NCBI GenBank assembly: GCA_015501585.1
Contig: JADNRY010000170.1
Location: 1-64,000, forward strand
DNA length: 64,000 bases
DNA from: Rhodocollybia butyracea
Lineage: Eukaryota; Basidiomycota; Agaricomycetes; Agaricales; Omphalotaceae
Direction of reading: 5' to 3'
The translations under genes and the position numbers were made by a program. The notes beneath the pieces are model-generated. The model saw only the letters and a list, made by a program, of their open reading frames with translations. It was not told where the DNA came from and ran no database searches. Positions 2,033-50,734 of this stretch are shown here, in pieces; within the stretch, counting starts at the first letter, position 1; the number at the start of each line of letters is the position of its first letter.

Positions 2033-3828
2033 GTAGAAGCCAGGTGAGAAAAAAGGTTTAAAAATTTAGCGCACGACGCACACCGAACTCGTTTCGCATC
2101 AAACTGACGGCCATGTTATGTAATTCAGCGGCAAGAGGAGCAATCATCACTTTCGGGAGTCTTCTTATTGTTCTTTGAAGTAGACCGCATTGTTTCCAGC
2201 CAGTCTCGAAAGAGCACTGATCCGAATGTATGTCGGTTTCGCATATTGAGCTCGAGTCGTTCCGCGAGCGTCTTTGCCTTTCTGTTTGTACACTACGTGA
2301 AATGTGCGCTTTAGGCTTTCGGTAATGTCGGGAGCTTTTGTAACAGCTCTGGTGCGCGTTCGAGTCGACAAGTCATTCTGTTCGTACAAACCGAAACCCA
2401 ACATTGTACATGGTGCTATGTATTTTTCAGTTCAGTTACCAGTCAACCGTAATAGACTAAGATAATATCACAATTTGAAACCCAAGTCCGTGTACCACGA
2501 TAGCTGGTCCTCAGCGCAATGTTAGTGCTAAATGATTCAGACCAAATTCAGACGCTTCTTTTCTCAACAAGGGCAAACGAAAGAAGGCAGAACTGCCTCC
2601 CCAGGATGAAGGACGGGACCATGTTTGATTACAACGCGTTGATCTGTGCATGTGTAAGTTGACATAGATTTAGACAAAAACATACATACCAAGCAAGTCA
2701 ACACCATCTATGCTTCTGGCAGTCAGCCAGTGTAGGCGAGAAAGTAACGTTAATAAACCAGAATGTTTCATCGAAAAACCTACAAAATCGCAGTCATGTT
2801 GTTCCCTAAATAAAAACCTGTCCAACCAAGCTTTCGGTGTTGCATTTTTGGTGTGGAGTTAAGCCCGATTAACAGTAGTGGGGAGAAGCCCCTAGCACTT
2901 TGAGGTAGGTAGTCGGGAGCACTTCGACTATGCAACCAGCTTCATACATATGTACCAGTCAATGAAAGGTAATGTATGGTCAACCCCCTTACGGTAACTT
3001 AGAGCGAATACAAAGAGTCAAACAACGATGCACAGGAAAGGGATATCCAATTCGATACACAACTGGGTTACTTGATGGTTCAGTTAAGGACCAAGCTATG
3101 GTCATTAGGACGAAGGTTGAGCGAGAAGTGCATCGTTGTAAAGAGTGACCGTGAGCATTATTGAAGGTACAGCAGTGTGCAATTTCAAAAGCACAAGATT
3201 ACATATTAAGGGGTGTTTAGCGTTCATGATACGCACTAAGTAGTACGGCCATCCAATCCCGATACAATTATGCTTATCACTGTTAAGGGTGTTATAGCTT
3301 GAGAATAGTGTGCATTAGTTCCATGTCCCACAGTCACGAAGGAAAGGAGCCGGATAGGATCAGATGGGATTTCTATGTACTTAAAATCCACGGAAGATCG
3401 CGCATTTGTTTCTCTGCTGCTGCTTCAGGGAGTCCATCCTCGAGTTATGCGGTTAAATATGCAGCGGCGAGCATTGGCGAGATCATCGGAAAGATATTCG
3501 GTGGTCTGTGTTACAAAAACAGTGTAAGTCGTCAGTTGCTGGTAAATTTCGGTCGGAGGAAGAGGAAACTAGAAAAAGAGGCGCGCGGAAAACGGACCGT
3601 TTTACTTACCTTACATGATTCATCAGTTTGGACAAACGAGTAGGTGTAGACACAAACTTCCTCAACTTAGCGGTGTGTGAAAAATCGAATAATTTAAGTC
3701 AGAAGATATAGTTAAATTCACAAAACAGTTGAGCCATTCCTCCTGGTATGACAATTAAATCAACTTCGACTAAAGAGTTTACCCTAGCTGCCAACAAAAT
3801 ATGCTAAGTACAGTCGCGGCGCACGGAT
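2033..3828. other. No supported gene
   Basis: Only short ORFs are present (for example 3299-3643 plus and 2165-2404 minus), with no recognisable domain and no codon or splice support. I see no repeat structure. Confidence 0.4.
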
Positions 3829-5346
3829 CTACACCTGCACTCCATTTGTTCCAGCAACGACCACTCTCAAACCCTCCGTATCCAAATTGCGGAGTGGTTG
3901 GTAAACCTCCGCGTCAACCTCTCGCCAAGAAAACTTGAGAACGACAGACCGTATACAGGCTTTTCCCATAGCCAAGGATAGATCTGAGCCAGGCTTAAGC
4001 CAGCGTGATTCAACCATGCTAATAAAAGCAAGGTCATTGAATTGTCCCTTACATTTGGAAATGAGACGGAGACTGTGGAGTTTGGGAGCAAGTGGGACGT
4101 GTTGTAGGCCCACAATGAGGTCCGAGCTGATTGGACTCTGCTGGGATGCATCATGTCCAAACATATCATCAATATCAAGATGAAGTACGAAGGGCATGAG
4201 TTTCAATGCTGCAGTAAGGTCCCAATCTGAGACTGATAGGCCGTGGAGGGTGAAGTTAGTAATCATCGAAGGGGAAGTGGATATAAAGGAAAGAAAAGCG
4301 TCTGCTGGCCAGATTCTATGCGATTGACCTTCTACCACAACCTCAGTCAGGGAAGGAAAGCGGAAGGAAGAGAACACCATTTTCGAGCATAAGCATGGCT
4401 CGAATGAACCCTGCACAACGGGTTCCGTAATAACAACAGAAGTGATGTTATGCCATGTGGCCTGTGTAAGTGGTGGATCCTCAACTACTTCGTTGTCAAG
4501 TTGGATTGCAAGAGATTTCAGCGAAGGGCAGCTGCAAAGAAAAGCTTCCAAAGCTGTTGACGATGCTGACGCTAGTCGAACGCAGAGAGAATCTAGTTGA
4601 TTGAAAGGTGCTCCGGATGGAGGGACCGTGTCGCTGTTAAGCAAACAAAGCATAGAGGCTTGCTTAAAGCTATTCAAGTCTGGAGCGCCGTCAATATCCA
4701 GTTCCAGGAGTAAAGGAAAGTCCTCGTCACTCAGGCTCAAGGACCAGTTTCCCCGATACTTGAAGGTTTTCCAACGAGGGGCGCACTTAATGAGGTGGCT
4801 TAGTAAAGTTAACACCTGTTCTCGAGACTCTGAAATGATGTCTACAGAGAGCCTCAATGGTGACTGGCCTGATCTCTGCAGATATCGAGTAAGCCTATCG
4901 ATGCAACCAAGTTCGAATTTCGTATCCGTGCTGTAGATGTCCAAATTTGCCCACAAACTAGGCGATGACAGCGCAAGCCTACGCCAACGAGAGCATACGG
5001 AGCTGATTGCCATCGCAGGGGGAAATGTGGCATCAGATGATGTAAATGTGATCTCTTCGGGAAACCAGTGGCTCGAGCGGTAGCCGATAAAATTTTTTTC
5101 GCATACCTGCTGGAGGATACGAAGTAAAATCTCGTTTGGTATTGTTCGGACAGGAGACAACCAAGCGCGTAGCTTGGCTCTTTGGTCGTGAAGGCGTACG
5201 ATTTGAGCTGCATGATCCTCGATGCCAGCATCTACCAAAGCCAGCATCTTTTTAACCTCTTCTGCTTGTTCTGGGGAGATCACGAATGGTCCAAATTTGG
5301 AACTAAGATCGTTGTCTATTTCGGGTAATGTGAGGTTCGCAGGCAT
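3829..5346 (-). CDS. F-box domain protein with leucine-rich C-terminal half
   Basis: This is an uninterrupted 505-codon ORF starting at the ATG of MPANLTLPEIDNDL. Residues about 25-62 form a charged helical segment (EQAEEVKKMLALVDAGIEDH...), the coiled-coil lead-in usual in Agaricomycete F-box proteins. The F-box follows at about 65-130, with LSPVRTIPNEILLRILQQVC and then VCSRWRRLALSSPSLWANL. The rest is leucine-rich with irregular LRR-like spacing (CPSLKSLAIQL, FPSLTEVVVEG, APKLHSLRLIS). F-box proteins of this kind link substrates to SCF ubiquitin ligases through Skp1; the substrate is unknown. Length, start and composition are normal for the family, and no intron is needed. It is the only intact host-type gene in the window. 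It sits alone, flanked by repeats, and belongs to a very large and variable gene family, so a specific function cannot be inferred. Confidence 0.9.
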   Translation of the reverse strand: MPANLTLPEIDNDLSSKFGPFVISPEQAEEVKKMLALVDAGIEDHAAQIVRLHDQRAKLRAWLSPVRTIPNEILLRILQQVCEKNFIGYRSSHWFPEEITFTSSDATFPPAMAISSVCSRWRRLALSSPSLWANLDIYSTDTKFELGCIDRLTRYLQRSGQSPLRLSVDIISESREQVLTLLSHLIKCAPRWKTFKYRGNWSLSLSDEDFPLLLELDIDGAPDLNSFKQASMLCLLNSDTVPPSGAPFNQLDSLCVRLASASSTALEAFLCSCPSLKSLAIQLDNEVVEDPPLTQATWHNITSVVITEPVVQGSFEPCLCSKMVFSSFRFPSLTEVVVEGQSHRIWPADAFLSFISTSPSMITNFTLHGLSVSDWDLTAALKLMPFVLHLDIDDMFGHDASQQSPISSDLIVGLQHVPLAPKLHSLRLISKCKGQFNDLAFISMVESRWLKPGSDLSLAMGKACIRSVVLKFSWREVDAEVYQPLRNLDTEGLRVVVAGTNGVQV

Positions 5347-5415
5347 CTGTGCAGCTCTGGCGTGTTGTGTGCAAAGTGAGGTTGTCTGATGCTGGAGAGA
5401 GAGATAGGTTCAACG

Positions 5416-5423
5416 CTTAAATA
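5416..5423 (-). promoter_or_regulatory. TATA-like box of the F-box gene
   Basis: TATTTAAG on the minus strand, about 70 bp upstream of the F-box ATG, is the only TATA-like motif in a suitable position. Assignment is by position only. Confidence 0.35.
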
Positions 5424-5695
5424 GGGCACTGAGCTTTTACAACGGGCGAAGTTATTGCCGAAATTATGACAGTTTTTGCATGATTCCGTGAAACATGGCT
5501 TTTTTTTTGACCAGTTCGATGATGTATCGACAATGCCCAATGCCATCAGACAGTCTCTCATTTACACTGGCAGACACAAGACAGGCTTGCCATCCTAGGC
5601 GAGCTTCTCTATTGGACTCTGATGCAAGTAATTACGTATTGTTGTGCAGCAATCCCCGACAACAACACAAAAGAAATGGCTGCTTACCGTGCAGG

Positions 5696-5817
5696 TACTA
5701 ATCAGCAAAACGCGGGTGAGCTGGAGCCGCTGTCAGGCAGCTGTTTCCCCCAGCAGCCCCAGCGCTGTACAGTGCTGGACAGCGGCATCCTGTGCATACA
5801 TGTTTTGCTGATTAGTA
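5696..5817. repeat. 122-bp mini inverted-repeat element
   Basis: Perfect 16-bp terminal inverted repeats (TACTAATCAGCAAAAC ... GTTTTGCTGATTAGTA) enclose a GC-rich core with further self-complementarity around CAGCGCTGTACAGTGCTGG. The outer TA on each side fits a TA target duplication of the Tc1/mariner type. There is no coding capacity. Confidence 0.65.
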
Positions 5818-6584
5818 AACTGTAAAGGCAGCCTGGACGTAAGGATACAGAGAAGTTTAGGGGTGTTCATACCAAACACTACAATAGATAAAGTTCATAG
5901 AGAGGTAGGACCAGAGCGGGACATACTTATTTATTACTTAATGGGGGAGGAGATTTGTGCGTGTCATAATATATCAATAAAAATAGTACCATTTTGAGGA
6001 ATTGGGATAGTTATCATTACACACTGCACCACCTTTGATATATGTTATAAAGCAGAAATACTTATAAGCAAAAAGGTAGAAGATTAGAAAATACAAATCA
6101 CAGACACACATGTCACGCTCACGCACTATATACGCTGACACGCACGCACGCACTTTGGCAGCACGCACTTACAAACACGGACATGCACCTGCTTATGCTT
6201 GTCATCTATGACACGCACTCACGCACAATTCTACGTGCCCTTACTTAATGTAAACCAGATATTGCCCAAAATGGTTTGCCTTGCGGACCAGGTGACCGAA
6301 ATGATGGAATTAGGGGTGTAATAAGAGAGGTCAAAGACGTACTGGTAACACCAATTGGATACATCAAAGACTTCATGTCTGTACGTCCTTGGTACTCTCG
6401 CAAGCACCATACTCCTCCTTTTCGTTCCGACCACCATCAAATAAGCGCCAAACCCTAAACGTCGTCGAACGACGTTAACCTCGAGGAAAACGGTACGATC
6501 ATAGCTCTTAGAGCAACAAAAATAGGCCTAGCGCTTTGCGCAAAGCCAGAATATAAAAGTCCTGTAAAACAGGCATATTCTGCT
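5818..6584. other. Non-coding stretch with CACGCA-rich run and palindrome
   Basis: The run 6100-6235 is rich in CACGCA/CACGCT words. At 6458-6476 AACGTCGT-CGA-ACGACGTT forms a perfect 8-bp-stem hairpin. No gene is supported. Confidence 0.45.
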
Positions 6585-7135
6585 CGTTAGTTCAACACAG
6601 TTGCACACATTCCATACCTCAGAATATTAAAACCCAAGCTTTGTGTTGCAATTTACAGTCCAAGTTTGGCTCAATGAAGTGTGATTTGGCATACATATGC
6701 AATGCCACCAATCAGAGCAAACTCCGTGTATGCCATAACACAGTACGGCATTGAATAAGCATTTTCGGTTGCAACCAATCTAATATATTTGATTGTGCCA
6801 CCAATAAGAGATAACTCCGCTCCGTGTGGCGGCATTGAATTTTATATTCGGCTCCATGGAGAAGTGTGCCACCAATGATGGTAGACGCCGTTCAGGAATT
6901 GTGGTGGTTACGTGTGGCATAATATAGTACCACTAGTCTATAACAAGTCTATATTAACCCCGGAACTACTGTAACATTGGATTCATCCATATCTATTGCA
7001 TTATGAAGCCCAGAAACATGCCGAAGAAGTGTTTAACTACACTGTACATTTATAAAAGAGATGAGAAGAACTTGGAGAAGGCAAACACCCACCTCCCTGT
7101 TGGAAACCAGCTAAGAAGTCCAGTCAGAGCACAAA
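6585..7135 (+). repeat. LTR-like repeat, copy 1
   Basis: About 540 bp is repeated in inverted orientation at 51655-52210, with similarity along the whole length including the TATA region (TATAAAAGAGATGAGAAG at about 7051, versus TATAAAAGACATGAGAAG in the other copy). Three GCCACCAAT words (6704, 6797, 6868) precede the TATA element, and the first two are followed by ACTCCG, so the layout resembles a U3 promoter of a long terminal repeat. No internal retrotransposon domain is attached, so it may be a solo LTR. The boundaries were set by where the two copies stop matching. Confidence 0.65.
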
Positions 7136-7241: not shown

Positions 7242-9395
7242 TTGGTGTTCACCTATTCTCAGAAACGCAAGCTCCGCGACCTTGATGACAGTAATGAGGG
7301 TGCAGAAAACTTGGCCGAAGCTTCACGACCTCGACGAGAGTTGAAGGACAAGATCCGGGATAACAACAGAGATGAACATACCCGAGGGCGCAAGCGGATG
7401 AAGATTACAAGTAGCGTCGAGAGGATGAACTACTTCCAACCTTTGATATGGAGTCAGATCCAACAGGCCACAAAAAAGGCAGGAAAACCTTGGATTCCCA
7501 CCGATATTGTCCGAATTGCCAAACAATCCAACCCAGAAGTGTTAAAACATCTCCGACCACAGACGCTACGCCGATGGAATGATCATAATGCAAAGAAAAA
7601 GGGGATCCATCAGTGGACAGAAAAGACACTAGAGAATGTTTGAAGAGGTAATAGACCTGGTGGACATACAACACGTCAAGGAATTCTCGTGAGTAGCTTT
7701 TCTCAAAATGAAGAATATCACTCATGGATTATACAGCACAGGTACCCAGAACTTACAAAAAAAATCTCCGCCCGTCTCAAGGCTCTCCGCGAAGCTGGAA
7801 CACTCCTCAGCTCAATAACCATACGAGCCATTATGGTTGGGTTTGATTGAGGGTCACGCGCCTCAACTTTTTGACCAGTTGCTTGCAGACAAAACAAAGT
7901 TTTGTTGTTCAGAAGCATTCATTCAGAAGTTTATTGCCAAAAAAATGGACTGAAGTTTCCGAACAACAATGGCACGTGCAGCTCAAAAACTCCCACAGAA
8001 TGTCAATGAAATCCTTCTTGAGGCATATTTGCGGAGGCATATCTTGTACGCAATTACAATGTCCATCCAGCACTTCGTGTAGACACAGATCAGACACAGA
8101 CTGTCTATCAGCAGGGAACTGGAAGTACCTGGCATCAAAAAGGCAATAAGCAGGTCCCCGCAGTTGGTATTGACGAGGAACGAGCTTTTACCCTGGTTCC
8201 ATCGATCTCTGCCAGCGGCGAGCTCCTTCCCTTCCAGGCAATCTATTGTGGTGGAACTAGCGAATCGCTTCCTAGCTCAAAGTCACTGTTCTACAAAGAA
8301 GCTATGAAACTCAGATTTCGGTTAGAACCTTCTAAAACAGACACATACTGGTCAACAATGGACACGATGAAGTCGCTAGTTAACGATATCATTGCACCGT
8401 ACTTTGAGTCAAAGAAGGCGGAGCTTGGTGTGACAGACACAGAGGCACAGTACTCCATTTGGAAAATTGACTGTTGGTCTGTACATAAGTCAAGGGAGTT
8501 TCTGGATTGGATGAAGATTACGCACCCAAATATCCTTGTCATTTTTGTTCCGGGTAATTGCACCTGCATCTTTCAACCACTCGATGTCGGCATCCAATGT
8601 GTCATGAAGCAGTCGGTGAAGCAGTCTGCACATCAAGATATTGTTACAGAGGTAACAGTCCAGCTTGGAAATACTCCAGCGAAGGAGATTCAGATTGATA
8701 CCCGGTTGAAGACCTTGCAAGACCGTTCACTTGGATGGATGGTCACTGCCTGGCATGATATCAACAAGCCTGACCTCATAAAGAAGGTAAGTTACACACC
8801 CATTATCAGGATATTCCCTCACGATATACAAGGCCTTTCAGCTCTGTCGTGCAGGCAGCTACGATTGCTCTCAAGAAAGCCTCACAAGTCCCACAACCCT
8901 TCGAGCTCTCCAGTCATTAAAAACAACACATCCGCAGCTGCATGAAAAGCTTTGTTGTGATGATACCATTCCCGACCCAGTGACCAAGAAGAGAGGTAAG
9001 AAAGAGCTGAAAAGGCATCAGGATCTATCTGTTTGCCAGACCTCAGCACTGACCCTGACGAGGTGGAGGCAGAACCAGTCTTCACTGACACCGGGTACTT
9101 TGACGACTCATGTGATGTGCCCATCGATGCTTTGATTGATCATATTATATCTGAAGGAAAAGATGAATTCGATGAGATGGCAGAAAATGAGAATGTAGGT
9201 CTGGAACGTACTGCAGAAGCTGAAGACCCAGAAGCTGATTGCACAGTTAAGGCCAGTGAAGAGCTCAAGAAACCGGAAGAGCTGGGAAGAGGGAAAAGAG
9301 AGCGGATAGCATCGAGATGGTACAGCAAAGATTGGGTGTACATAAAAGATGCAGATGTCGTGGATGACTGTAGTATTAAAGGAAGGGGAAGTTGA
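7242..9395 (+). pseudogene. Pogo-type DDE endonuclease (transposase), broken
   Basis: Three blocks in order give a DDE superfamily endonuclease of the pogo/DDE_1 type common in Agaricomycetes. An N-terminal basic region (7242-7643) leads, after an apparent GTGAGT...TACAG intron (about 7688-7736), into HRYPELTKKISARLKALREA. The catalytic core follows: VDTDQTQTVYQQGTG (first Asp), IDCWSVHKSREFLDWM (second Asp), then FQPLDVGIQ (third Asp). An acidic C-terminal tail with a GRGKRERIASRWYS motif ends near 9395. Such enzymes cut and paste DNA at TA targets. The copy cannot work as it stands: there is an in-frame TGA after LENV (about 7641), a frameshift near 7845, a TGA where a Trp codon is expected (about 7950), and another frameshift near 8030. 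A TATAAAAG box lies about 190 bp upstream. No clear terminal inverted repeats were found. Confidence 0.75.
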
Positions 9396-14127: not shown

Positions 14128-14739
14128 GTTATATGAGTGGTAAGCCTACCTGTACTCAAGCAAGGGTTCAACTGACCTGGCGCCGGGACAAGAACAAATC
14201 ACATTGCACAGATGATGAGATTAATATGGGGCCTGTTTCAAAATGCCTCTGTGACAAATATAGTACCACTTGCAATATGTCAGTGAAGGGTTTACTTTAA
14301 GAAATTGGGCTCGAAATGATGCTAGGGGTTATAACATAATCTTGATTTACCATATATGGTCCGTGGGAATGCTTACATAGTTAGTTTGTCTGACCTTTGA
14401 ACTAGTTCTGAAAAGTTTGAGCTGCGGTCATCTTTTGAAAAGTTTGCACCCCCTTGTGTTATGACCCATACCCAAACTATAAGCATATACATATCTTTTT
14501 CTATTATTATTAACCAACTACTACTACTATCATTAAGATTTCTACTTATCATATACATTTTACATTCATTACTCATTTTCTCTACATTATTTGGCATAAT
14601 GCTGCACACGTGAACATACTGTTAATCAACTTCGGTTTCACTAGAATAATTGAACACCAGTCACTGCATGACATCATTCTACTGCTCCACAGTTATGATG
14701 TCATTCTGCAGCATTTCCTAAATAATACATACTTGACAG

Positions 14740-14747
14740 TATATAAG
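14740..14747 (+). promoter_or_regulatory. TATA box upstream of hairpin array
   Basis: TATATAAG lies about 110 bp before the first hairpin. With AATAAA at 15444-15449 downstream it brackets a possible transcript of about 650-700 nt, as the R region of an LTR or a small non-coding RNA gene would be. Confidence 0.4.
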
Positions 14748-14848
14748 GAGGCTAGATTTACCAATGTACAGTAGATGTATTATTTTTCTTAAATCCAAAC
14801 CCCCACTTGTTTGCTGTTATCACTTGTGTGAATCACCAGACCAACTCA

Positions 14849-15161
14849 TTGTATCTTGTTGAGCTATCTCCAAGCTACAATACACATTTATACATCTTGT
14901 TGAGCTAACTCCAAGTTGTATCCACTAACATTCACCTGTTGAGCTATCTCCTAGTGAATACTTCTTTAATTGCCACTTGTTGAGCTATCTCCGAGTTGCA
15001 ACTTCCTATTACTTGTTGAGCTATCTCCAAGTATTAGACACCACACTCACTACTACTTATTGAGCCATCTCCGAGTATTAGTTCTGATTCATATTACTGC
15101 TTGTTGAGCCATCTCCAAGGGTAATCTTATTATTATTTGTCGAGCTATCTCCAAATAATAA
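14849..15161 (+). repeat. Array of eight hairpins sharing a 12-nt loop with varying paired stems
   Basis: Eight units each carry the core TTGAGCYATCTC (one TCGAGC, one TTGAGCTAACTC) flanked by arms of 5-10 bp that pair with each other but differ from unit to unit. Examples: TTGTATCTTG/CAAGCTACAA (unit 1), ATACATCTTG/CAAGTTGTAT (2), TTCAC/GTGAA (3), CTATTACTTG/CAAGTATTAG (5), ATTAC..CTTG/CAAGGGTAAT (7) and the perfect TTATTATTTG/CAAATAATAA (8). Spacing is about 30-45 nt. The loop is conserved while stem letters change in a compensating way, as expected if an RNA or single-stranded DNA structure is selected. A TACTAAC branch-point-like word and a CCTAG acceptor-like end follow at 15191-15212. 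Confidence 0.8.
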
Positions 15162-15443
15162 CTTCTGTGAGTTTTGTATTACAAACTAGTTACTAACTTT
15201 ACTTGAGCCTAGTTGTTTGAGGATATATTTTTTGTGTAGTGGTTTCAACAAACGGAAAGGCTTGCTCTATAATCTCATTAATTTCTCTTATCATTTTTAC
15301 TGCCGAGTTACTGTTGAGAACGGACCGCCGGTCCGATGACGGTTTGTTTCGGGCTCAAGTAGCACCACCGGCATGATACCCGCCACCCCGTGTCTTACTG
15401 TATTTGTTATTACTTTACTATTTATATTGACTACCGTACTTCC

Positions 15444-15449
15444 AATAAA
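15444..15449 (+). terminator. Candidate polyadenylation signal
   Basis: AATAAA about 280 bp after the hairpin array. It is the only canonical signal in this stretch, and its role is inferred from position. Confidence 0.3.
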
Positions 15450-16069
15450 GGGATTGTTTGCGCCCCCCGTTTCCGTGCCCCCCTAAATTCTGTCTGATAA
15501 GCTTTTGCTTATTATCGCTTCTGGACCTATCGCTCACAGTTACATACTGTGAAGGTTTGGACGAGACTAATGATCCAGTCATAACACCTTGAAGGTAGGC
15601 ATAACTTGGTGTTCGACTCAGAGATAACACTGCTGTCCAGGGTGAGTTGCAGCTAGCAGCTATTAGACTTCACCAACAACACCTTTGACACTCCCCTTGC
15701 GTCTCATTCACATCTTTTTCACCACCATCCAGCCCTCAACAACAATCCATAGCTTTTATAGCTCTTCATGATCCACTTAATTTATGGGCCTGGGGCCTGA
15801 GTTTTGGCTAACTTAGGCCCTGTTCAGGAACCCAGGTGGGGTTGGTAGGGTCAGATTTTGGCGTAAGATGGGGTAGCTGCTGGGTTGCCAGAATTTTTAC
15901 CCTAAACCCAACCCTACCCTGGCGTTCATTAACTTTTTGGGTTGAAAGTCACGCGTGACTTTCAATTTCTCTTTCCTTTCTTTCAATTTCCCGTTAATCT
16001 CAGTGTGTTTTCTTCCTGTACTCTCTTTAATACCTCCCTATAATGTCTGAAATAATCTAAACAGCACAA

Positions 16070-31214: not shown

Positions 31215-31944
31215 GGATCGCTTCAACACATGTTGTGCCCTCCATTGTGCTTACTGCACTTGGTTAGACAGTGTTCAATGAACGTCCAACGCTCATTCCT
31301 GGAGTGTACGAAGTTCGCGTGTTGTGCATAGCTGGTCATGGTACATGGTAACATTCATGGATCGCATTTCTCTCCATTCCTGCATTGTTCAAAAATATAC
31401 ATGACTTTGCACACTGACACACACATGTATTTACATAGGCACCCGATGATCGAACGAACTGTTTAAGGGCTTTGCTGTGATGGCATTCCCTTTAGGGTTT
31501 TATTCCCTGCCAGGTAGACTTGGGGTCACCGCTATAATAGCCATAAAAGCGTTCATGTGCATCCGCTGGCAAACTGCGAACGATCATTGGGTTCTTGGCC
31601 TTCGTAGAATAATTGTACATACACATTACCTACCTGCTGCTTGCCTTAAGTTCTTTACATGCTGAAGGGATACTGTTCGATTGTGCTGCAAAGCACATCT
31701 GAACGTTGACTGAACGCATATTCTTGGCATTCAGTTACCCTATTTGTGTTCCGATCAACTTAAGTGACTGAGTCCGAATTGGAATGATCGGATCAGTGGA
31801 TGGAAAATGGATGGATAATTATATGCGATCAACACTGAAAACACTTGTCACGGGTTTCTGACTCTGTTGTTGTGATCTGAGTTCATAACTTGTGGAAGCA
31901 CGTCACTGACTGTTGCTCTACTTTTTCTAGAACCTTATCAAAAC

Positions 31945-34900
31945 ATGTCTCTCTCAAACCTCTCTAGTGTTCCTCTCCTCAATGGGGCTAACTACCCCTC
32001 CTGGTCCAGTTCAATGACAGCGCTCCTTAGAGCTTCTCGTTGTTGGTCTGTTGTATGTGGACGGATCCTTCGCCCCAAACAAACATTCCGCAAAGCAAGC
32101 GCCTCTGAAGTCGCTGCTGGCACTTACAAGGCCAATGAAGATATTGAAACCACCACTGCCGAACGGCAGAAAGAGATTGATGACTGGGACAGCATTGACG
32201 ACCAAGCCATGGGCTTAATTGCCCTCCGACTTCCTGATGACATCAGGGCTACTGTCCTAAAGACTGACTCTGGTGAGACTTGGGACGAAATCAAAAAGAT
32301 CTATGGCAAACCCGGCTCTGCCGGCACTTTTGGCATCTTCAAAGAGGCCATTAACTTCCAAATCGACGGAAGAAACGACCCTACTCTTGCCCTAGCATCC
32401 TTAAACTCCACCTTCTCCCGCCTTGATGGCTCTGGTCTCATCCTTCCTGAACCGGTAAAAGCTATGATTCTATTGGCCGCTCTTCCTACTCAATGGGATA
32501 GTCTTGCGATGACAATCCTTTCTCGAGATGCAAATCTCCTTACTCCGTCCAATATCATGCCGATCATTCAGGACGAGTATCGCCGCCGCCAATCCAACGC
32601 TACCTCTCTCGCGGCCCGCATCTCCGGCGTCAAACGTCAATCTGATTCCAAGTCTTCTTGGAATGATCAGAAAAAGAAGAAGGACACCAAGAAGGGAGCG
32701 CCTTACCCGGCAAGCAAACCTTCCAACGACTCGTCCTCTTCTTCCGACAAAGACAAAAAGACACGCCGCGGAAAGAAAGGAGGAAAAGGCAAAGAAAAGG
32801 CTCATGAATCAGCTGAAGTGGAGACTTCCAATGTCTCTAATTTCGCCACCTGCCTTGCCTCGCGCATTAACGACAGCTTCCTCCGTGAAGCCTCCCACGA
32901 CTCCGTCCTTGACAGGATGAAGATCGAGGAAGTAGAGGTCGATCTCTCTGATCACCTCTGGCCTCAGACCAAACTCGAAATGGACATTGACGAGGAAATG
33001 TATGGCTCTGGAGACGAGCGCCTTATTTTCTGGCAAGCTTCCCTTAATAGTTTTAAGGAAAAATTCACTGACCAATTGCACTCATTACAACAGATGTTCA
33101 ATAACATGGCTGGAATCTCGAACGGTCCAAATGGACCTTATGTATCACATTCTCCACGCTTCATGAACTCTGTACCTCCTAGTGAGGGTAAATTAAATAA
33201 AATGGTTTCTAATGATGTGCATGGTGCGAATAAGAACCTTAGTCAGATATTTAACACATGGCTGCTTGATTCCGGTGCATCTGGATATTTTACCCCTTAT
33301 CGGCAAGACTTTGTGTCTTATAAAAAATTCACACATCCGATACCTGTCCAGACTGCTGACGAACGAACGTCAACCTTTATTGAAGGTGCCGGAACAGTCT
33401 ACATAAGGCATGACAACGGCGAAGGAAAAATCCTCACGACTAAGTTACACCCAGTGTTTTACCAACCGCATTGCACACACCGACTTCTATCTGTTGGTTT
33501 ATTAAATCGACAGGGTTGCTACACAACTATTAACGTTGAGAAATCAGTTATTCGTAAGACGGATGATGACTCTATGATCATGACCTTATATCCCAATAAC
33601 GACAGGGATAATATTCACTGGCTAAAGGCCGATGTAGTGAAATCTGAGATAGGCATGATATCATCTCCTAATGATTTTAACACCTGGCATAACCGTTTTG
33701 CACATCCCGGTGATGTCGTATTACGCAATGCTCCTGGAAATGTCAACGGACTACCTAAGTTGTCGATACCAGATAAAGAATCTCCATGCAAAGGTTGCGC
33801 GCTTGGAAAGGCTGCCTCCAAAGCATATCCTAAGTCCGAGAAACGAGCATCCAACCCTATGGATTTAATTCACGCAGATTTGGTTGAAATTCCAACCGTC
33901 TCTTATCATAAATTTAAATTTGTGATCACTCTGCTGGATGACTGCTCTTCTCATGCTACTTCGATCATGCTGCGACAAAAATCAGAAGCGTTTCAAGCCT
34001 TCAAGGATTTCAAATCTTGGGCTGAAAAACAAACTGGACGCAAACTTGTGCGTTTCCGCATTGATCGAGGGGGAGAACTTATCTCAAAGGAATTTACTTC
34101 CTTTCTCAAGTCTGAGGGTATTGATATTCAAATGTCCGAACCTTATGTTCATCAACAGAATGGTAGAGCGGAACGTATCAACCGTACACTCATGGAAAAA
34201 TCCGAAGCCATGCGACACCATGCATGCTGCCCGGAGTCCTGGTGGCAATTTTCATATTCCACAGGAGTACATGTGTATAACCGCACACCGATCCGTCGAT
34301 TGAACTGGAAGACACCAATTGAAGTTTTTCTCAAAAAGAAACCTGATGTCTCGTACTTCAGAACCTTTGGCTGTGGCGCTTATGTCTTTATTCCTATTGA
34401 CAAGCGAAAAAATAAACAATCCCCACACTCTGAAGCAATGACTTTCATTGGATATGACCAAGGAAGCAAAGGATATCTATTCATGCGTAGCGATAATTCC
34501 GTAGTGCATGCTGCACAAGCAACTTTCTATGAGAAATGGTTTCCACGGTGCAAATCCGAATCTGATTCTGGAGTAAAACCCGCTATACCTGTTGCCCCCA
34601 CGCCTGTGAAACCTTCGCAACCTTCAAATGGTAATGGTGCAGACATTCCATTTGATCCGGAATTCCCGGAAGATCAACCACAACCGTTTACTGAACCGGA
34701 AAATGGACCGCACAGTCCACCAGCTGGCCCAGATCCAGATCTGCCTGGTGATGATGATGCTCCAAATCCCAATCCTCCGGTACCATCTCGATCACCCACC
34801 CCTCCACCTCAAGCAAGAGACCCTTCACCACCTGCTCCCGATCCTAATCCATTCAGCTACCGTCCTGAAGACGTTGAAGCATGGAAACGTGTGAACCCCA

Positions 34901-36840
34901 CTAGAGAACGCCGTGCACCCTTACGCCCTGGCATGATACCCACGCCTGGCACTTGGAGCCGACAAGCTGATCGTGAAGAACGTGCTGAGCGCTTTGGACA
35001 CGCTAGACGTGGACTTGTGCCTGCTCGCAATATAGTTCCTGATCAAGTTCCGCCACCGGTTCCACCACCACGTCCATTGAATCCTGATGACCGTATGGTC
35101 ACACCGCCACCTCCAGGCGCTACTCCGGATTCTGACATAGAAGAGGAAGCACTTCTGACTAAACTAGCTCAGGAAGGGGGAGTTGAATTACAAAAATACC
35201 TTCTTTCGCAAGCAATCTCCGATTCTCTAGAAGAATCATCTTTTATCACAGATCTTGACAGTGAAATGATACCGACTAAACACGAAGCCGCTAGGAATAA
35301 TCCTGATAATTGGATTTCTCCAACATCATATCGTCATTTACCATCTGCTGAAAGAAAGAAATGGGATCAAGCATGCAAAGATGAGATCGATGGTTTGAAG
35401 AAACGAAATGTCTTTGAAGTAGTTGATCTACCAAAAGGTCGCAAACCTATCCGTTGTCGATGGGTTTTTACTAAAAAATCTGACGGTCGCTATAAAGCCC
35501 GACTCGTAGCAAAAGGTTTTTCACAAGTAGAAGGTGTGGATTATAATGAGTTGTTCTCACCGGTTGCCCGGTTTGAAACTGTACGAACTCTCCTAGCTTT
35601 AGCCGCATTAGAGGACTGGGAAATCCAGGCTCTTGACGTCAAACAGGCTTTTCTTTATGGCAAGCTAGATGAAGAGATCTACATGGAACAACCTAAAGAC
35701 TTCATTAAAGAAGGCACACCGAAAGTATGGCGGTTACATCGTGCATTATACGGACTGAAACAAGCTAGCTTATCCTGGTGGAAGGAATGTAACGCCTCCA
35801 TGGGAAAATTGGGATTTAAGCGCTGCTCTTCAGATGCTGGTGTATACGTCTTTAAATCAAATGGCAAAACCGTAACTGCCATCATCTATGTTGATGACGC
35901 ACTCTTTCTTGGCAAGGACAAAGATCTTGTTCTTAAAAAGAAAAACGAGTTTATGAAATTATGGGAATGTCGTGATCTAGGAGAACCAACTGAGTTCCTT
36001 GGAATGCGGATTACACGGGATCGTTCCAAACGTGTCTTAACACTTGACCAACAACCTTATCTTCGAAAGGTCATAGAACGTTTTGGACTGACTAATGCTA
36101 AAGCCACCCCAACCCCATTACCTTCATCCTGGGTTCCTCGTGCAAACACTGGTCGTGTAGATGCCAAACTTAGACAACGCTTCCAAAGCGTAATTGGATC
36201 TTTATTGTATCTGATGCTAGGCACCCAACCCGACATTGCTTATGCCGTTATAAAACTCTCACAGTATTCGGCGAATCCAAACCCAGACCACCTGGCCAAA
36301 GCACTTTACATTGTGCGCTACTTAATTGGGACTTCTACTTACGTACTTGTCTTTGATGGTAGATCTGACCATGGCTTCTTAGCCTATTGTGATTCTGACT
36401 GGGCGTCAGATCCAGATGATCGAAAATCCCATACTGGGATGATTATCAAACTTGCCACAGGTCCAATCTGCTGGACTTCTCACAAACAGAAAACAGTTGC
36501 TCTTTCATCGACTGAAGCTGAATACATGGCTTTATCTGATTCATGTAGACAACTTATGTGGCTCAAGTCTCTCTTTTCTGAGATTGGAATTACTATCGCT
36601 GTATTGCCCTTATGTGGTGATAATCAAGGATCAATCTTTCTAGGATCTAATCCTGTACAAGAAAGAAGAACCAAGCATATTGATATACGATATCATTATA
36701 TCAGAGAACGCATTGAATCAAAAGAAATAGAACTCTTCTATGTTCCTACTGATGATAATGTCGCAGATCTTCTCACGAAGAATCTTGCACTTGTCAAATT
36801 TCAGAAATTCCGCAACAGCCTTGGAATTCTCTTTAATTGA
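31945..36840 (+). CDS. Copia Gag-Pol polyprotein
   Basis: An intact 1631-codon ORF. Residues 1-230 form a Copia-type Gag (LLNGANYPSWSSSMTALLRA), followed by a Lys-rich linker without a clear CCHC knuckle. The protease motif is WLLDSGAS (Asp at about 442). The pre-integrase zinc region has WHNRFAH and CKGCALGK. The integrase core has Asp 645 (HADL), Asp 707 (FRIDRGGEL) and Glu 743 (NGRAERINR), a D,D(35)E spacing. A Pro-rich linker follows (about 870-1080). RT contains CRWVFTKKSDGRYKARLVAK and the active-site YVDD at about 1315-1318. RNase H has YCDSDWASD, STEAEYMAL, GDNQGS and DNVADLLTK. Every catalytic residue I could check is present. The proteins copy the element RNA and insert the cDNA. 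The ATG at 31945 is the first of the frame. Confidence 0.95.
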   Translation: MSLSNLSSVPLLNGANYPSWSSSMTALLRASRCWSVVCGRILRPKQTFRKASASEVAAGTYKANEDIETTTAERQKEIDDWDSIDDQAMGLIALRLPDDIRATVLKTDSGETWDEIKKIYGKPGSAGTFGIFKEAINFQIDGRNDPTLALASLNSTFSRLDGSGLILPEPVKAMILLAALPTQWDSLAMTILSRDANLLTPSNIMPIIQDEYRRRQSNATSLAARISGVKRQSDSKSSWNDQKKKKDTKKGAPYPASKPSNDSSSSSDKDKKTRRGKKGGKGKEKAHESAEVETSNVSNFATCLASRINDSFLREASHDSVLDRMKIEEVEVDLSDHLWPQTKLEMDIDEEMYGSGDERLIFWQASLNSFKEKFTDQLHSLQQMFNNMAGISNGPNGPYVSHSPRFMNSVPPSEGKLNKMVSNDVHGANKNLSQIFNTWLLDSGASGYFTPYRQDFVSYKKFTHPIPVQTADERTSTFIEGAGTVYIRHDNGEGKILTTKLHPVFYQPHCTHRLLSVGLLNRQGCYTTINVEKSVIRKTDDDSMIMTLYPNNDRDNIHWLKADVVKSEIGMISSPNDFNTWHNRFAHPGDVVLRNAPGNVNGLPKLSIPDKESPCKGCALGKAASKAYPKSEKRASNPMDLIHADLVEIPTVSYHKFKFVITLLDDCSSHATSIMLRQKSEAFQAFKDFKSWAEKQTGRKLVRFRIDRGGELISKEFTSFLKSEGIDIQMSEPYVHQQNGRAERINRTLMEKSEAMRHHACCPESWWQFSYSTGVHVYNRTPIRRLNWKTPIEVFLKKKPDVSYFRTFGCGAYVFIPIDKRKNKQSPHSEAMTFIGYDQGSKGYLFMRSDNSVVHAAQATFYEKWFPRCKSESDSGVKPAIPVAPTPVKPSQPSNGNGADIPFDPEFPEDQPQPFTEPENGPHSPPAGPDPDLPGDDDAPNPNPPVPSRSPTPPPQARDPSPPAPDPNPFSYRPEDVEAWKRVNPTRERRAPLRPGMIPTPGTWSRQADREERAERFGHARRGLVPARNIVPDQVPPPVPPPRPLNPDDRMVTPPPPGATPDSDIEEEALLTKLAQEGGVELQKYLLSQAISDSLEESSFITDLDSEMIPTKHEAARNNPDNWISPTSYRHLPSAERKKWDQACKDEIDGLKKRNVFEVVDLPKGRKPIRCRWVFTKKSDGRYKARLVAKGFSQVEGVDYNELFSPVARFETVRTLLALAALEDWEIQALDVKQAFLYGKLDEEIYMEQPKDFIKEGTPKVWRLHRALYGLKQASLSWWKECNASMGKLGFKRCSSDAGVYVFKSNGKTVTAIIYVDDALFLGKDKDLVLKKKNEFMKLWECRDLGEPTEFLGMRITRDRSKRVLTLDQQPYLRKVIERFGLTNAKATPTPLPSSWVPRANTGRVDAKLRQRFQSVIGSLLYLMLGTQPDIAYAVIKLSQYSANPNPDHLAKALYIVRYLIGTSTYVLVFDGRSDHGFLAYCDSDWASDPDDRKSHTGMIIKLATGPICWTSHKQKTVALSSTEAEYMALSDSCRQLMWLKSLFSEIGITIAVLPLCGDNQGSIFLGSNPVQERRTKHIDIRYHYIRERIESKEIELFYVPTDDNVADLLTKNLALVKFQKFRNSLGILFN

Positions 36841-37455: not shown

Positions 37456-39260
37456 GGATGAGAGCAGTGAGTGCAATGGGGACCATTGGAGCTGTGAGAG
37501 CAGTGTGTGCAATAGGGGCTGTTGGAGCAGTAAAAGCAGTGAGTGCATTTGGGCTGTTGGAGCATTGAAATTTGACAGCCCCATTGCACTCACTGCTCTC
37601 ACTGCTCTCATGGCTCCGACAACCCCAATTGCACTCACTGCACTCACTGCTCTCACCACTCTGACAGCCCTGATTGGACTCACTGCTCTCACAGCCCCAG
37701 TTTCACTAACTGCTCTCACAGCTCCAATGGCCCCCCCATTGCACTCACTGCTCTCACAGCTCCAACAGCCCCAATTGCACTCGTTGTATTCATGGCTCCA
37801 ACAGCCTCAATTGCTCCCCCAATTGCTCCGATGGCCCCAATTGTACTCAATGCTCGCACTGCTCTGATGGCCCCAATTGCACTTAATACTCTCACAGTCT
37901 CACTGCTCCAACAGCCCCAATTGCACTCAGTGTTCTCACTGTCTCAACAGCCCCAATTGCTCCAATGGCCCCCATTGCACCCAATGCTCGCACTGCTCTG
38001 ACAGCACCAATTGCACTCAATGCTCTCACTGCTCCAACAGACCCAATTGCACTCATTGCTCTCACTGTTCCAACAGCCCCAAACACACATTTAATGCTCC
38101 CACTGATCTGACAGCCCCCATTGGCCTTGCACTGGGTGCTCTCACTGCTCCAACCGCCCCCATTGCACTCAGTGCTCTTATTGCTCCAATGGCCCCCACT
38201 GCTCCTCCAGCCTCAATTGCACTCAGTCCTCTCACTGCTTCGACAGCCCCAATTGCACCCAATGCACACACTGCTCTGACAGCCCCAATTGCTCCAACGG
38301 CCCTCATTGTGCTACATCCCGAGGTCTTCTGACTGTACTGTTCTGCTGCCCTCTACTTGCCTTAATTTTCCTACATTTTGCCTTGCACTTATCCAAGTCA
38401 TCCCATTTAATTTCCCTAAGTTTTCACCCTTCCCATTGCACTCATTGCACCCACTGCGCTCACTGCCACCATTGCACTCACTGCTTCCACTGCTCTGACA
38501 GCCCCATTGCACTCACTGCTCTCACGGCTCCAATGGCCCCCATTGCACTCACAGCTCTGACAGCCCAATTGCACTCACTGCTATGACTGCTCTGATGGCT
38601 CCAATGGCCCCCATTGCACTCATTGCTCTCACTGGTTCAACAGCCCCAATTGCACTCACTGCTCTCACTGCTCCCATTGCCCCGACAGCCCCAATTGCTC
38701 CAATGGCTCTCATTGCACTCACTGCTCTCATGGCTCCAATGGCCCCATTGGACTCACTGCTTTCACTGCTCCAACAGCCCCCATTGGACTCACTGCTCTC
38801 ACAGCTCCAACAGCCCCAATTGCACTCACTGCTCTCACTGCTCCAACAGCCCCAATTGCTCCAACGGCCCTCATTGCACTCACTGCTCTCACTGCTCCAA
38901 CAGCCCCAATTGCTCCAATGGCCCCCATTGCCCTTGCTGCTCTCCCAGCTCCGACAGCCCCCATTGCACTCACTGCTCTCACTGCTCTGACAGTTCCAAT
39001 TGCACTCACTGCTCTCACTGCTCCAATGGCCCCAAGTGCTCAAATGGCCCTCATTGCACTCACTGCTCTCATGGGCTGGGAGTCACAGCTCCGACAGCCC
39101 CAATTGCACCCACTGCTCTCACTGCCCCAACAGCCTCAATTTCACTCACTGCTCCCACAGCTCCAACAGCTTCAATTGCTCCAATGACCACCATTTTGCT
39201 CAATGCTCTCACTGCTCCAACAGCCCAAATTGCTTCAATGTCCCCCATTGCACTACATCC
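37456..39260. repeat. Minisatellite of an 18/36-bp unit with an inverted start
   Basis: About 1.8 kb of variants of two 18-mers, TGCACTCACTGCTCTCAC and TGCTCCAACAGCCCCAAT. From 37456 to about 37560 the unit runs in the opposite direction, and around 37565 it flips, making a large palindrome. Indels are nearly all multiples of 3 (mainly 18), so long ORFs exist in several frames on both strands (Ala-Leu-Thr-Ala, Cys-Thr-His-Cys, Ala-Val-Ser-Ala-Ile type repeats). I do not call a gene: there is no start context and no non-repetitive domain. Confidence 0.85.
38310..38425 (+). repeat. Duplicated unique spacer, copy 1
   Basis: CTTCTGACTGTACTGTTCTG through TTTAATTTCCCTAAGTTTTC is repeated at 39246-39365 with few changes. 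Array plus spacer therefore form a larger unit of roughly 0.9 kb, duplicated in tandem. Confidence 0.75.
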
Positions 39261-39365
39261 CCAAATCTTCTGACTGTACTGTTCTGCTGGCCTCTACTTG
39301 CTTTAATTTTCATATGTTTTCCCTTGCATTTATCCAAGTCATCCCATTTAATTTTCCTAAGTTTT
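39246..39365 (+). repeat. Duplicated unique spacer, copy 2
   Basis: Second copy of the 38310-38425 spacer, same orientation, at the end of the second minisatellite block. Confidence 0.75.
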
Positions 39366-44830: not shown

Positions 44831-45656
44831 ATAGGTAAACTAAATCATTTAGTTTAATTTCGGGTTCATCCGTTCTGTGCTTATTAGCATGGAAGGTTTG
44901 TTTTACCCTTGCCTCAATAAGTCTATCGTGGGCATCAGAGAGGTGCTGAAGGGCACAATCTGCGAATTCGCGTACACCTGGCAAGACTTTTGCATCGCTC
45001 GGGTATTCGCAAACCATGGATGGCATGTACCCTCCATCTACCTCGAAGGGAGCATACCCTGTGCTCTTGTTTACACTGGAATTCAATGTGAATTCCATCA
45101 TTGGGCATTTTTCTACCCAGTCTTTTTGGTCTGCTTCGACCATTGACTGTAAGATTTGACCAATTGAACGATTTACTCATTCAGTTATTCCATCCGTTTG
45201 GGGGTGGAATGATGTAGACATTAGGAGCTTTGCTCCTAGTAAGTGGTGTACTTCATGCCACCATTGTGACGTGAATTTCGAGTCTCTGTCTGAGACGATG
45301 GACTTAGGTAGTCCATGTAATTTCACGATCTCCTTTACGAAGATCCATGATAATTGCGATGCAGTTATCGTTGTTTTCACGGGTATAAGGTGTACTCGTG
45401 AAGTCATCCTGCAAATGACTACCCACAGGTAATCATATCCTTGCGATTCTGGGAATGGACCTATGAAGTCCATTCCAATTGATTCCCATGGTTTCGTGGG
45501 GATCGGAAGCGAATGTAGCAAACCTATTGGTTTGCGATTGCTTGTTTTAATTTGCTGGCAAGTCTCACAAGACTTGCAGAATTCTTCAATGTTGCCATTG
45601 ACCCGTGGCCACCAATACCATCGTCGCATCAGATTCATAGTAGCGCGATAATGCAT
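44772..45656 (-). pseudogene. Gypsy integrase core, stop and truncated N-terminal zinc domain
   Basis: The frame opens at RRWYWWPRVNGNIEEFCKSC and ETCQQIK, so the two Cys of the HHCC finger are there but the His pair is missing. The core has MDFIGPFPES (first Asp), IVSDRDSKFTSQWW (second Asp) and HPQTDGITE (Glu). Right after TDGITE a TGA (45177) replaces the expected Arg codon, and a shift leads to VEADQKDWVEKCPMMEFTLN and TGYAPFEVDGGYMPSMVCEY to 44772. Integrase joins the cDNA to the target, but this copy is broken in at least three places. Confidence 0.75.
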
Positions 45657-46565
45657 TGGCTACTTTGTTGTTTATTCCTTTGATATAACGTATATCAAAA
45701 TCAAATCTGGATAGGTATTCCATCCATTGAGCTTGTCTACTGGACAATTTTCGTTGTGTTAGAAAGAATCCTAACACTTTGTGGTCAGTGACCACATGAA
45801 TTCGATATCCAAGAAGTTTATCTTCCCATTTGAGAAGAGCTTCGAGGATAGCTAGAGTTTCTATTTCGAAAACTCTATAGTTATGCTGCGCTGCAGTAAA
45901 CTTTCTGGACATGAAGCCGGCAGGCCTACACTGTTGCCATGTAGGTCCTTGACCGTACATGCATCCGACGCCGGATACCGACGCATCACAGATGACCCAT
46001 ATAGGTTCGTCTTTATTAGTATTTATAGGCTTCAGTATTGGAGCCTTGGTTGCCAGTCTTTTGATGTGCTGAAAGCACATTTCATGGACTGGCATCCATA
46101 CGAAAGGAACATTTTTCCTTGTCATTATAGACAGTGGTCCAGTATACTGGGCTACATCTGGCATGTACGGGGCTATGTATTGTACTAACCCCAAGAATTG
46201 TTGTACGTTGTTGAACGTACGCGGAGTTCACCATTCGCGAATCCTGTCCATCTTGTCGGTATCCGTGTGGATACCTTTATCGTCTATGGAATGTCCAAGA
46301 CAGTCCACTGTAGCAGAGAAGAGCTCGCATTTAGCGGCTCGAAGGAAGAAATGATCTTGGGAAACATTTCACGAGATATTTCTTGTAAGACTTCGACATA
46401 ATTGTTGAGGTCTTCTGCCGATAACATAGTTGTTTTTGGTGTTTGTGATGAATCATTTTCATCATATTTCTCCAGTATTACTGGGAAATGGTGCGGAAAG
46501 CTCCTTGCGGAGTGTTGTAATTCTGAACGAAGATGTTCTTTGTCCACTATCGTCTCAATTTCCAC
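45586..46565 (-). pseudogene. Gypsy RT remnant and RNase H (RT active site deleted)
   Basis: After a linker (VEIETIVDKEHLRSELQHSA) the sequence jumps to YVEVLQEISREMFPKDHFFL and RAAKCELFSATVDCLGHSID, the RT thumb-side motif that normally lies about 25 residues after the YxDD box. Everything before it, including YxDD, is absent. GLVQYIAPYMPDVAQY and the RNase H follow: WVICDASVSGVGCMYGQG (catalytic Asp), FEIETLAILEAL (Glu), VVTDHKVLGFF (Asp) and NKVANALSRYYES. A second jump then leads straight into the integrase finger. Frameshifts lie near 46340 and 46220. Confidence 0.75.
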
Positions 46566-46616
46566 TATTGGAATTTTGTTATTTTTCGACTTCTTTGAAG
46601 TTGAAACTGCAGCTAG

Positions 46617-48071: not shown

Positions 48072-48085
48072 CCTTGCCGCCCATC

Positions 48086-50596: not shown

Positions 50597-50734
50597 GTGA
50601 TCAAACTTTTGTTGATTTTGCTTGGCGCTTTTGATGCGGAGTAAGAGTGGTGATAATTGTTTAGATTACTTTATAATTCTAGTCGAGTAGTTATTACTTC
50701 TCATAGTTTTGTGCACACAATCTTTTAATAAAGA

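Follow-up and report, generated by a model that had tools for sequence, protein, structure and literature searches.

Tandem hairpins with a near-fixed core in the LTR of a putatively self-priming Ty3/Gypsy family of Rhodocollybia butyracea

Small hairpins which a protein reads through a bulge or a fixed loop are familiar from HIV TAR, from the tandem packaging hairpins of gammaretroviruses and from the MS2 phage operator, where they stand in R, in the leader, or in repeated form. Gag-only TR-GAG elements are known from plants, and gypsy, with its tandem Su(Hw) sites, provides a precedent for an array acting at the DNA level. Closest to the locus described here are the self-priming retrotransposons: in Tf1 the primer-binding site, next to the 5' LTR, has its complement in the first 11 bases of the RNA (PMC7175516), and Tj1 is likewise self-priming, the 5' end of its RNA being complementary to the primer-binding site (PMC4600332). 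Ty1, Ty3 and retroviruses likewise have structured leaders for packaging and dimerisation, situated 5'-terminally in the genomic RNA and next to the priming site (PMC11381356, PMC4974528). In Sirevirus LTRs clusters of short dyad motifs lie 5' of the TATA box, where they are interpreted as sites in the DNA (PMC2829016). How LTR retrotransposons single out their own RNA for packaging is poorly understood, even in yeast Ty3, whose packaging sequences are, in the available excerpts of PMC11381356, described as not precisely defined.

Here, we analysed a 64,000-nucleotide stretch of R. butyracea DNA (contig JADNRY010000170.1, positions 1 to 64,000, forward strand; hereafter the window), in which eight tandem hairpins lie inside the LTR of a Ty3/Gypsy element. 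As in Tf1/Tf2, sushi-type elements and Tj1, the predicted RNA 5' end complements a primer-binding site adjoining the 5' LTR; a further likeness is the presence of SH3_Tf2-1 and a chromodomain in a gag-pol relative (on contig C591). However, the match spans 12-13 nt against the 11 bases of Tf1, the gag end, protease and pol of the one gag-pol copy (C591) occupy three frames, unlike in Tf1-type elements, and 7-10 hairpins stand between primer and site, an arrangement without mention in the available excerpts on Tf1 and Tj1 (PMC7175516, PMC4600332). The array family shares its place in the RNA with the leaders of Ty1, Ty3 and retroviruses, but those are, as far as the excerpts go, single structures, while here 7-10 like hairpins follow one another (PMC11381356, PMC4974528). 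In contrast to the Sirevirus motifs, the clustered hairpins lie 3' of the TATA box, in the predicted RNA. From HIV TAR, the gammaretroviral hairpins and the MS2 operator they differ in sequence, in their 7-10 natural copies, and in having no more than a putative protein reader. The gag-only copies that we read resemble TR-GAG elements in having two LTRs, an open gag frame and no pol; unlike TR-GAG, one array-bearing class (L010) has no recognisable capsid domain. Chromoviruses that prime themselves, LTR elements with gag alone and structured leaders are all known already. For an array of 7-10 like hairpins in a self-priming leader, the open-licence literature, searched for tandem or repeated hairpins in LTRs and for the core sequence, yielded no description. 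The original prediction, which knew of no described LTR with such a sequence, holds within that literature, but the array turned out to be part of an LTR itself.

Anatomy of the array and selection on its pairing

The array consists of eight hairpins with a near-invariant 12-nt core, as predicted. The cores start at 14859, 14900, 14939, 14980, 15016, 15060, 15104 and 15140; TTGAGCYATCTC is exact in six of the eight units, and the other two carry one mismatch each. With ten-base arms on either side of the cores the array extends exactly from 14849 to 15161 (Table 1). Each hairpin has outermost about ten pairs, mostly with one pyrimidine mismatch. Inside this stem come a bulge, UU or UC, then a short helix of GAG with CUC and, at the tip, a loop of four nt, CYAU in most. 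Among the 80 outer positions of the window array, 63 are Watson-Crick pairs, 5 are G-U pairs on the + strand and 2 pair only on the − strand. We regard the anatomy of the array and its LTR as close to certain.

Table 1. Coordinates of the array, its host LTR and the nested insert in the window
Feature	Position	Strand	Evidence
Target-site duplication, left, CCTTG	14452..14456	.	LTR ends
Solo LTR of a Ty3/Gypsy element, TGTTATGAC...GTCATAACA, split by a nested LTR	14457..15586	+	ends, duplication, relatives
TATA box TATATAA	14740..14746	+	sequence; retained in relatives
Predicted transcript start and self-primer, altered in the window copy (GTAGATGTATTATT)	14771..14784	+	comparison with intact relatives
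Hairpin array, eight units, within the leader	14849..15161	+	core positions, arm-pairing test
Hairpin 1	14849..14880	+	arm-pairing test
Hairpin 2, core variant TTGAGCTAACTC	14890..14921	+	arm-pairing test
Hairpin 3	14929..14960	+	arm-pairing test
Hairpin 4	14970..15001	+	arm-pairing test
Hairpin 5	15006..15037	+	arm-pairing test
Hairpin 6	15050..15081	+	arm-pairing test
Hairpin 7, shifted register in the outer stem	15094..15125	+	arm-pairing test
Hairpin 8, ten uninterrupted outer pairs	15130..15161	+	arm-pairing test, pair count
Remaining transcribed LTR before the nested insert	15162..15311	+	relatives conserve LTR positions up to 855
Nested solo LTR of another family, GTTAC flanks, AATAAA at 15444	15312..15538	+	alignment of relatives, flanks, genome search
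End of the array-bearing LTR, beyond the insert	15544..15586	+	alignment with relatives
Target-site duplication, right, CCTTG	15587..15591	.	LTR ends

The arms pair best with their own partners. We combined every unit's 5' arm with every unit's 3' arm around one fixed core, and none of the other arrangements among the 40,320 permutations folded at as low a total energy as the true pairing (−68.1 kcal/mol, against a permutation mean of −40.5 with a standard deviation of 5.7). With the in-register outer pairs alone as the score, 12 of the 40,320 permutations equalled or beat it. All eight hairpins are present in the unconstrained minimum-energy fold of the + strand, while the overall stability of the 542-nt stretch is unremarkable (z −1.17 on the + strand, −0.81 on the − strand); the signal is therefore one of local pairing.

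Covariation was assessed on an alignment of 26 distinct units, 25 of them drawn from a list of 33 and the other taken from L024, whose array has nine. Paired cells amounted to 88.2%, against 77.9% in shuffled alignments, and the covariation score was 0.320 against 0.161, both values being reached in none of 500 shuffles. Three of the five measures exceeded the shuffles in this alignment, which bears out the prediction that the arms covary and pair within each unit; pairs changed on both sides (167 of 500 shuffles) and further pair types (495 of 500) did not. A covariance model built from the 26 units recovered six of the eight window units at E up to 1. Units 5 and 7, which it did not list, have 38-nt windows that share two bases with those of units 4 and 8.

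Variation among copies points in the same direction as selection on a folded RNA, which had been proposed and which the arm pairing and covariation also support. Leaving out the outer pairs of unit 7, we counted 18 variant types at paired sites, of which 7 break a pair, against 33.4 expected (about a five-fold deficit), and 11 keep it, against 15.3 expected. The deficit has a Poisson P of 4e-8, or 0.0009 when the small set of spacers serves as the control, and mismatched stem sites vary more than paired ones (0.5 against 0.1 types per site, P 0.0008, again without the outer pairs of unit 7); variant types were counted on related copies, and these P values are guides only. Across 46 copies the GAG/CTC helix is the least variable class of sites, with 0.042 variant types per site, followed by the 5' stem (0.087), loop (0.125), bulge (0.188), 3' stem (0.225), flanks (0.234) and spacers (0.281). 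This set leaves out L002-L008 and L050 as duplicates, L029-L032, L053 and L054 as products of other searches and L060 as rearranged, and it counts the two LTRs of one element separately; the ranking of its copies by similarity to the array introduces a bias, to which the spacers are subject too. Judged from these comparisons of sequence, the array is under selection for pairing, with a near-fixed core. Seven types of pairing-keeping variants do so on the + strand only and five on the − strand only, and the variants alone do not settle the folding strand.

The number of units is not constant. The window array has eight, as do 24 of the 25 arrays compared, the 25th (L024) implying nine; 44 extra bases imply nine in L052, and L055 and L056 have ten each. 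The C591 element has nine hairpins in its 5' LTR and seven in its 3' LTR; one of these seven is a hybrid, its 5' arm being that of unit 4 and its 3' arm that of unit 5. Slippage or unequal exchange alters the unit count, and selection maintains the paired stems. An origin as slippage products had been named as what would speak against the prediction; the count does vary, from 7 to 10, but the units are not simple slippage products, because their arms have diverged and still pair.

The host LTR, its family and its gag leader

The array-bearing LTR has TG...CA ends and a 5-bp target-site duplication, CCTTG. In relatives the LTR passes from position 855 straight to 1082 (L021 has no match to the tail), so that 15312-15538 is extra DNA in the window copy. 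A genome search with this insert listed at least 41 matches, the window included, among the best 40 of 84 candidates scored, and the matches listed include seven same-strand pairs about 1.5 kb apart. By its sequence the insert is a solo LTR of a separate small family, which probably consists of miniature LTR elements some 1.7 kb long. The AATAAA at 15444, which had been taken as the end of the array's transcript, was rejected as the array's own signal since it belongs to this foreign LTR. Rfam 15, applied to the window at the gathering score, gave no match.

The family is abundant in the genome, which was searched over 95.6 Mb in 1381 contigs. Among 360 candidates found with the array, the best 40 were scored and had 94-100% identity; a search with the nine-unit relative (best 40 of 370 candidates scored) had no place in common with the first 40. 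With up to three mismatches allowed, a 30-nt pattern taken from hairpin 2 was found at 335 places and its backward control at none. The Ty3/Gypsy array family thus has at least 335 array copies, and the units are not confined to the window; such confinement, as simple slippage products, was one of the outcomes that would have refuted the original prediction. For more distant arrays, 259 matches of the covariance model over 42 loci were inspected, and none was seen outside known arrays. From LTR position 244, just 5' of the TATA box, to 855 most copies are 95-97% identical; across the first 150 bp of U3 identity is often only 71-77%.

The internal region starts with TAATAATACGTCTC, or nearly so, in the copies read. 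In L011 the 13-nt complement of this site, GAGACGTATTATT, stands 32 nt past the start of the TATA box, and transcription is predicted to start about there. The predicted RNA 5' end is complementary to the site just inside the 5' LTR over 12-13 nt in six of seven elements and over 8 nt in L009. When the letters of the 30-nt site were shuffled 5000 times, 13 nt was never reached; of 4905 internal windows 2 reached it, both at the junction. This complementarity is a signature of self-priming of the Tf1 type. Priming by tRNA was rejected, as by eye no TGG was found at the LTR junction in the copies read.

The order of features is the RNA 5' end, 7 to 10 hairpins, the primer site and then the gag start codon, with 612-704 nt from the predicted start to the gag ATG. 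Upstream ATGs number 2, 1, 0, 1, 0 and 0 in six elements, against 9.0-10.8 in dinucleotide shuffles, and the complements of these leaders contain 12-13; in the three elements that have upstream ATGs, one sits four bases 5' of the gag ATG. An ATG just 5' of the predicted start (CAATGTAC) falls outside the predicted transcript, and the single leader ATG of the window copy lies in its altered primer. This depletion supports the predicted start site and the + sense, and with it the earlier expectation of transcription from a TATA box about 110 bp upstream of the array, a box that is indeed present. The array thus appears to sit in the gag mRNA leader, in the transcribed part of the LTR between self-primer and primer site, in keeping with one of the earlier guesses, a retroelement signal; for another, a sponge RNA, no evidence was found.

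The complete copies read are gag-only, with two LTRs and an open gag frame but no pol. Paired LTRs flank an internal region in L010, L011 and L052. The pairs of L010 and L011 are identical across 1125 bp, which indicates recent insertion, and they have the duplications AGGGT and CAATC, respectively; those of L052 differ at 2 of 1169 positions and, as in L009, the flanks do not match. L011 has a frame of 1132 aa with Retrotrans_gag and a zinc knuckle. In L010 (3313-5559, minus strand) and L052 the frame has 749 aa; that of L010 had no Pfam match at E 0.01, and by eye a zinc-knuckle-like motif is kept near its end. The 749-aa class seems to have lost the capsid part of the 1132-aa class, though its copies are recent. 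dN/dS between the two classes is 0.51, and between closer gag copies 0.48 (L011-L056), 0.72, 1.09 and 1.26. On the reverse strand of L010, at about 4737-4820, the 3' noncoding part holds a sequence (GTCATAAAATAATAATACATCTC) that nearly repeats the LTR end together with the primer-binding site, and another AATAATACATCTC lies nearby; such near-copies occur at 23 places in the genome, in the 3.5-kb gag-only class. By analogy with the split site of Ty3, this region is a possible 3' partner for the RNA 5' end.

A pattern spanning the LTR-internal junction was found at 79 places, namely 50 exact matches, 5 with one mismatch, one two-mismatch variant and 23 related sequences inside elements. The search for pol covered eight of the nine junctions of unknown class, with second pieces for six, the ninth being too close to its contig end, and reverse transcriptase was seen behind one, on C591. 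There, a like junction is followed by a related gag (piece L063, 85-89% identical) and a reverse transcriptase frame; the 1262-aa frame contains RVT_1, RNase H, an integrase zinc finger, the integrase core (rve; 30.6 bits, just below the cut-off of 32.6), SH3_Tf2-1 and a chromodomain. This one relative therefore has the Ty3/Gypsy chromovirus order of reverse transcriptase, RNase H and integrase with chromodomain, and both its LTRs contain the array. Its flanks do not match and its LTRs are unlike (nine and seven hairpins), and it may be a recombinant. L057 (C523) was rejected as a gag-pol partner, as by eye it shows no reverse transcriptase-like frame; at about 2145-6743 it carries an insert inside a gag-only element, by eye probably a DNA transposon, and at another junction, L059 (C307), the start of the same frame as in this insert is found.

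Possible roles of the array

The reading towards which we lean, tentatively and with somewhat less than even confidence, is that the array is a platform on which Gag docks for packaging of the element's RNA. The array would then work in cis, as an RNA element that the LTR of a self-priming Ty3/Gypsy chromovirus family encodes in its transcribed part. One protein would read the fixed bulge, helix and loop, and the tandem hairpins would supply avidity; the likeliest reader would be the element's own Gag, which through its zinc knuckle would select genomic RNA near the self-priming site. The gag-only derivatives would retain the array because they depend for packaging and copying on proteins supplied in trans. 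In favour of Gag docking we count the arm pairing, the covariation, the scarcity of pair-breaking variants and the fixed GAG/CTC core, as well as the self-priming complement, the ATG-poor leader, the Retrotrans_gag and zinc-knuckle domains and the presence of arrays in both gag-only and gag-pol elements. Against it we count the greater variability of bulge and loop than of GAG/CTC, the dN/dS of 0.72 to 1.26 among close gag copies, a folding strand which the variants leave unsettled and the possibly recombinant nature of C591; in the L010 class the link to Gag is weaker because of the lack of a Pfam match for the 749-aa frame.

A bolder form of Gag docking is conceivable but doubtful: 7-10 protein-binding hairpins between the self-priming 5' end and the primer site would make up a multivalent identity tag by which Gag recognises its own RNA, carried by the gag-pol chromovirus and by gag-only derivatives, one class of them without recognisable capsid. 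If so, parasites of the parasite would be defined by keeping the tag, and the number of hairpins, itself drifting through slippage, would determine what share of packaging an element obtains. In any case a repeated RNA motif placed within a self-priming leader is common to gag-only elements and a gag-pol relative, and its discrete, countable hairpins, with natural variants of 7 to 10 units, make the packaging question directly testable.

The free fold of the L011 leader bears on an unlikely alternative, in which the hairpins are a scaffold for self-priming: they would compact the roughly 570 nt from the RNA 5' end to the primer-binding site and keep competing structure out so that the 5' end anneals, the core being secondary. 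In this fold primer and site do pair over 13 nt, each pair at a probability of 0.73-1.0, and hairpins also form. Under a strict rule (four inner pairs in register) six of the eight count, since two inner positions are mismatched in unit 3 and, in unit 4, the innermost pair forms at a probability of 0.35; the outer stem of unit 7 lies outside its assigned register. Compaction, however, needs no fixed core, yet GAG/CTC is what varies least.

The array could equally dock a host protein, and a leader nearly without upstream ATGs, like a scanned 5' leader, would suit an RNA-binding protein of the host acting on the gag mRNA at the level of translation, export or decay. We consider this rather improbable, as our analysis names no such protein and no Rfam family matched. 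Dimerisation by a kissing contact of GAG with CUC, one core from each of two genomic RNAs, is very improbable: the core GAG and CTC are able to pair between molecules, but the computed core-core duplexes are weak (−3.1 to −4.7 kcal/mol) and one dimer site would suffice.

We give little credence to an array of tandem transcription-factor or insulator-protein sites acting at the DNA level in the transcribed LTR. AGATAG, which we take to be a GATA-factor site, occurs in the reverse complement of most cores, but it is broken in units 2, 6 and 7 while positions outside the motif stay fixed, so that a GATA-factor array with WGATAR in every unit was rejected; nor does recognition of duplex DNA explain complementary arms. 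A functionless minisatellite grown through slippage would account for the variable unit number and for the unit 4/unit 5 hybrid in the seven-unit array of C591, but it is extremely improbable, given arms that differ between units yet pair and the scarcity of pair-breaking variants. Pairing of the core with the element body was also considered and rejected, with one two-mismatch match in L011 and none in L010.

Other features of the window

The window contains further mobile and repeated DNA. A long open Copia gag-pol frame of 1654 aa lies at 31876-36840 (+), and within these coordinates 34140-34966 is 98.9% identical to the DNA directly past the 3' LTR of the C591 element. A second Ty3/Gypsy element, fragmented and with RNase H, protease and zinc-knuckle matches, occupies 45586-50665 (−), and a frame at 8022-8945 (+) resembles the DDE_1 transposase. 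A long tandem array at 37459-39273 is built of repeats of 9, 36, 45 and 54 bp, with open frames of up to 225 aa across part of it, and a short telomere-like repeat, GTTAGGGTTTAGG, is found at 480-526.
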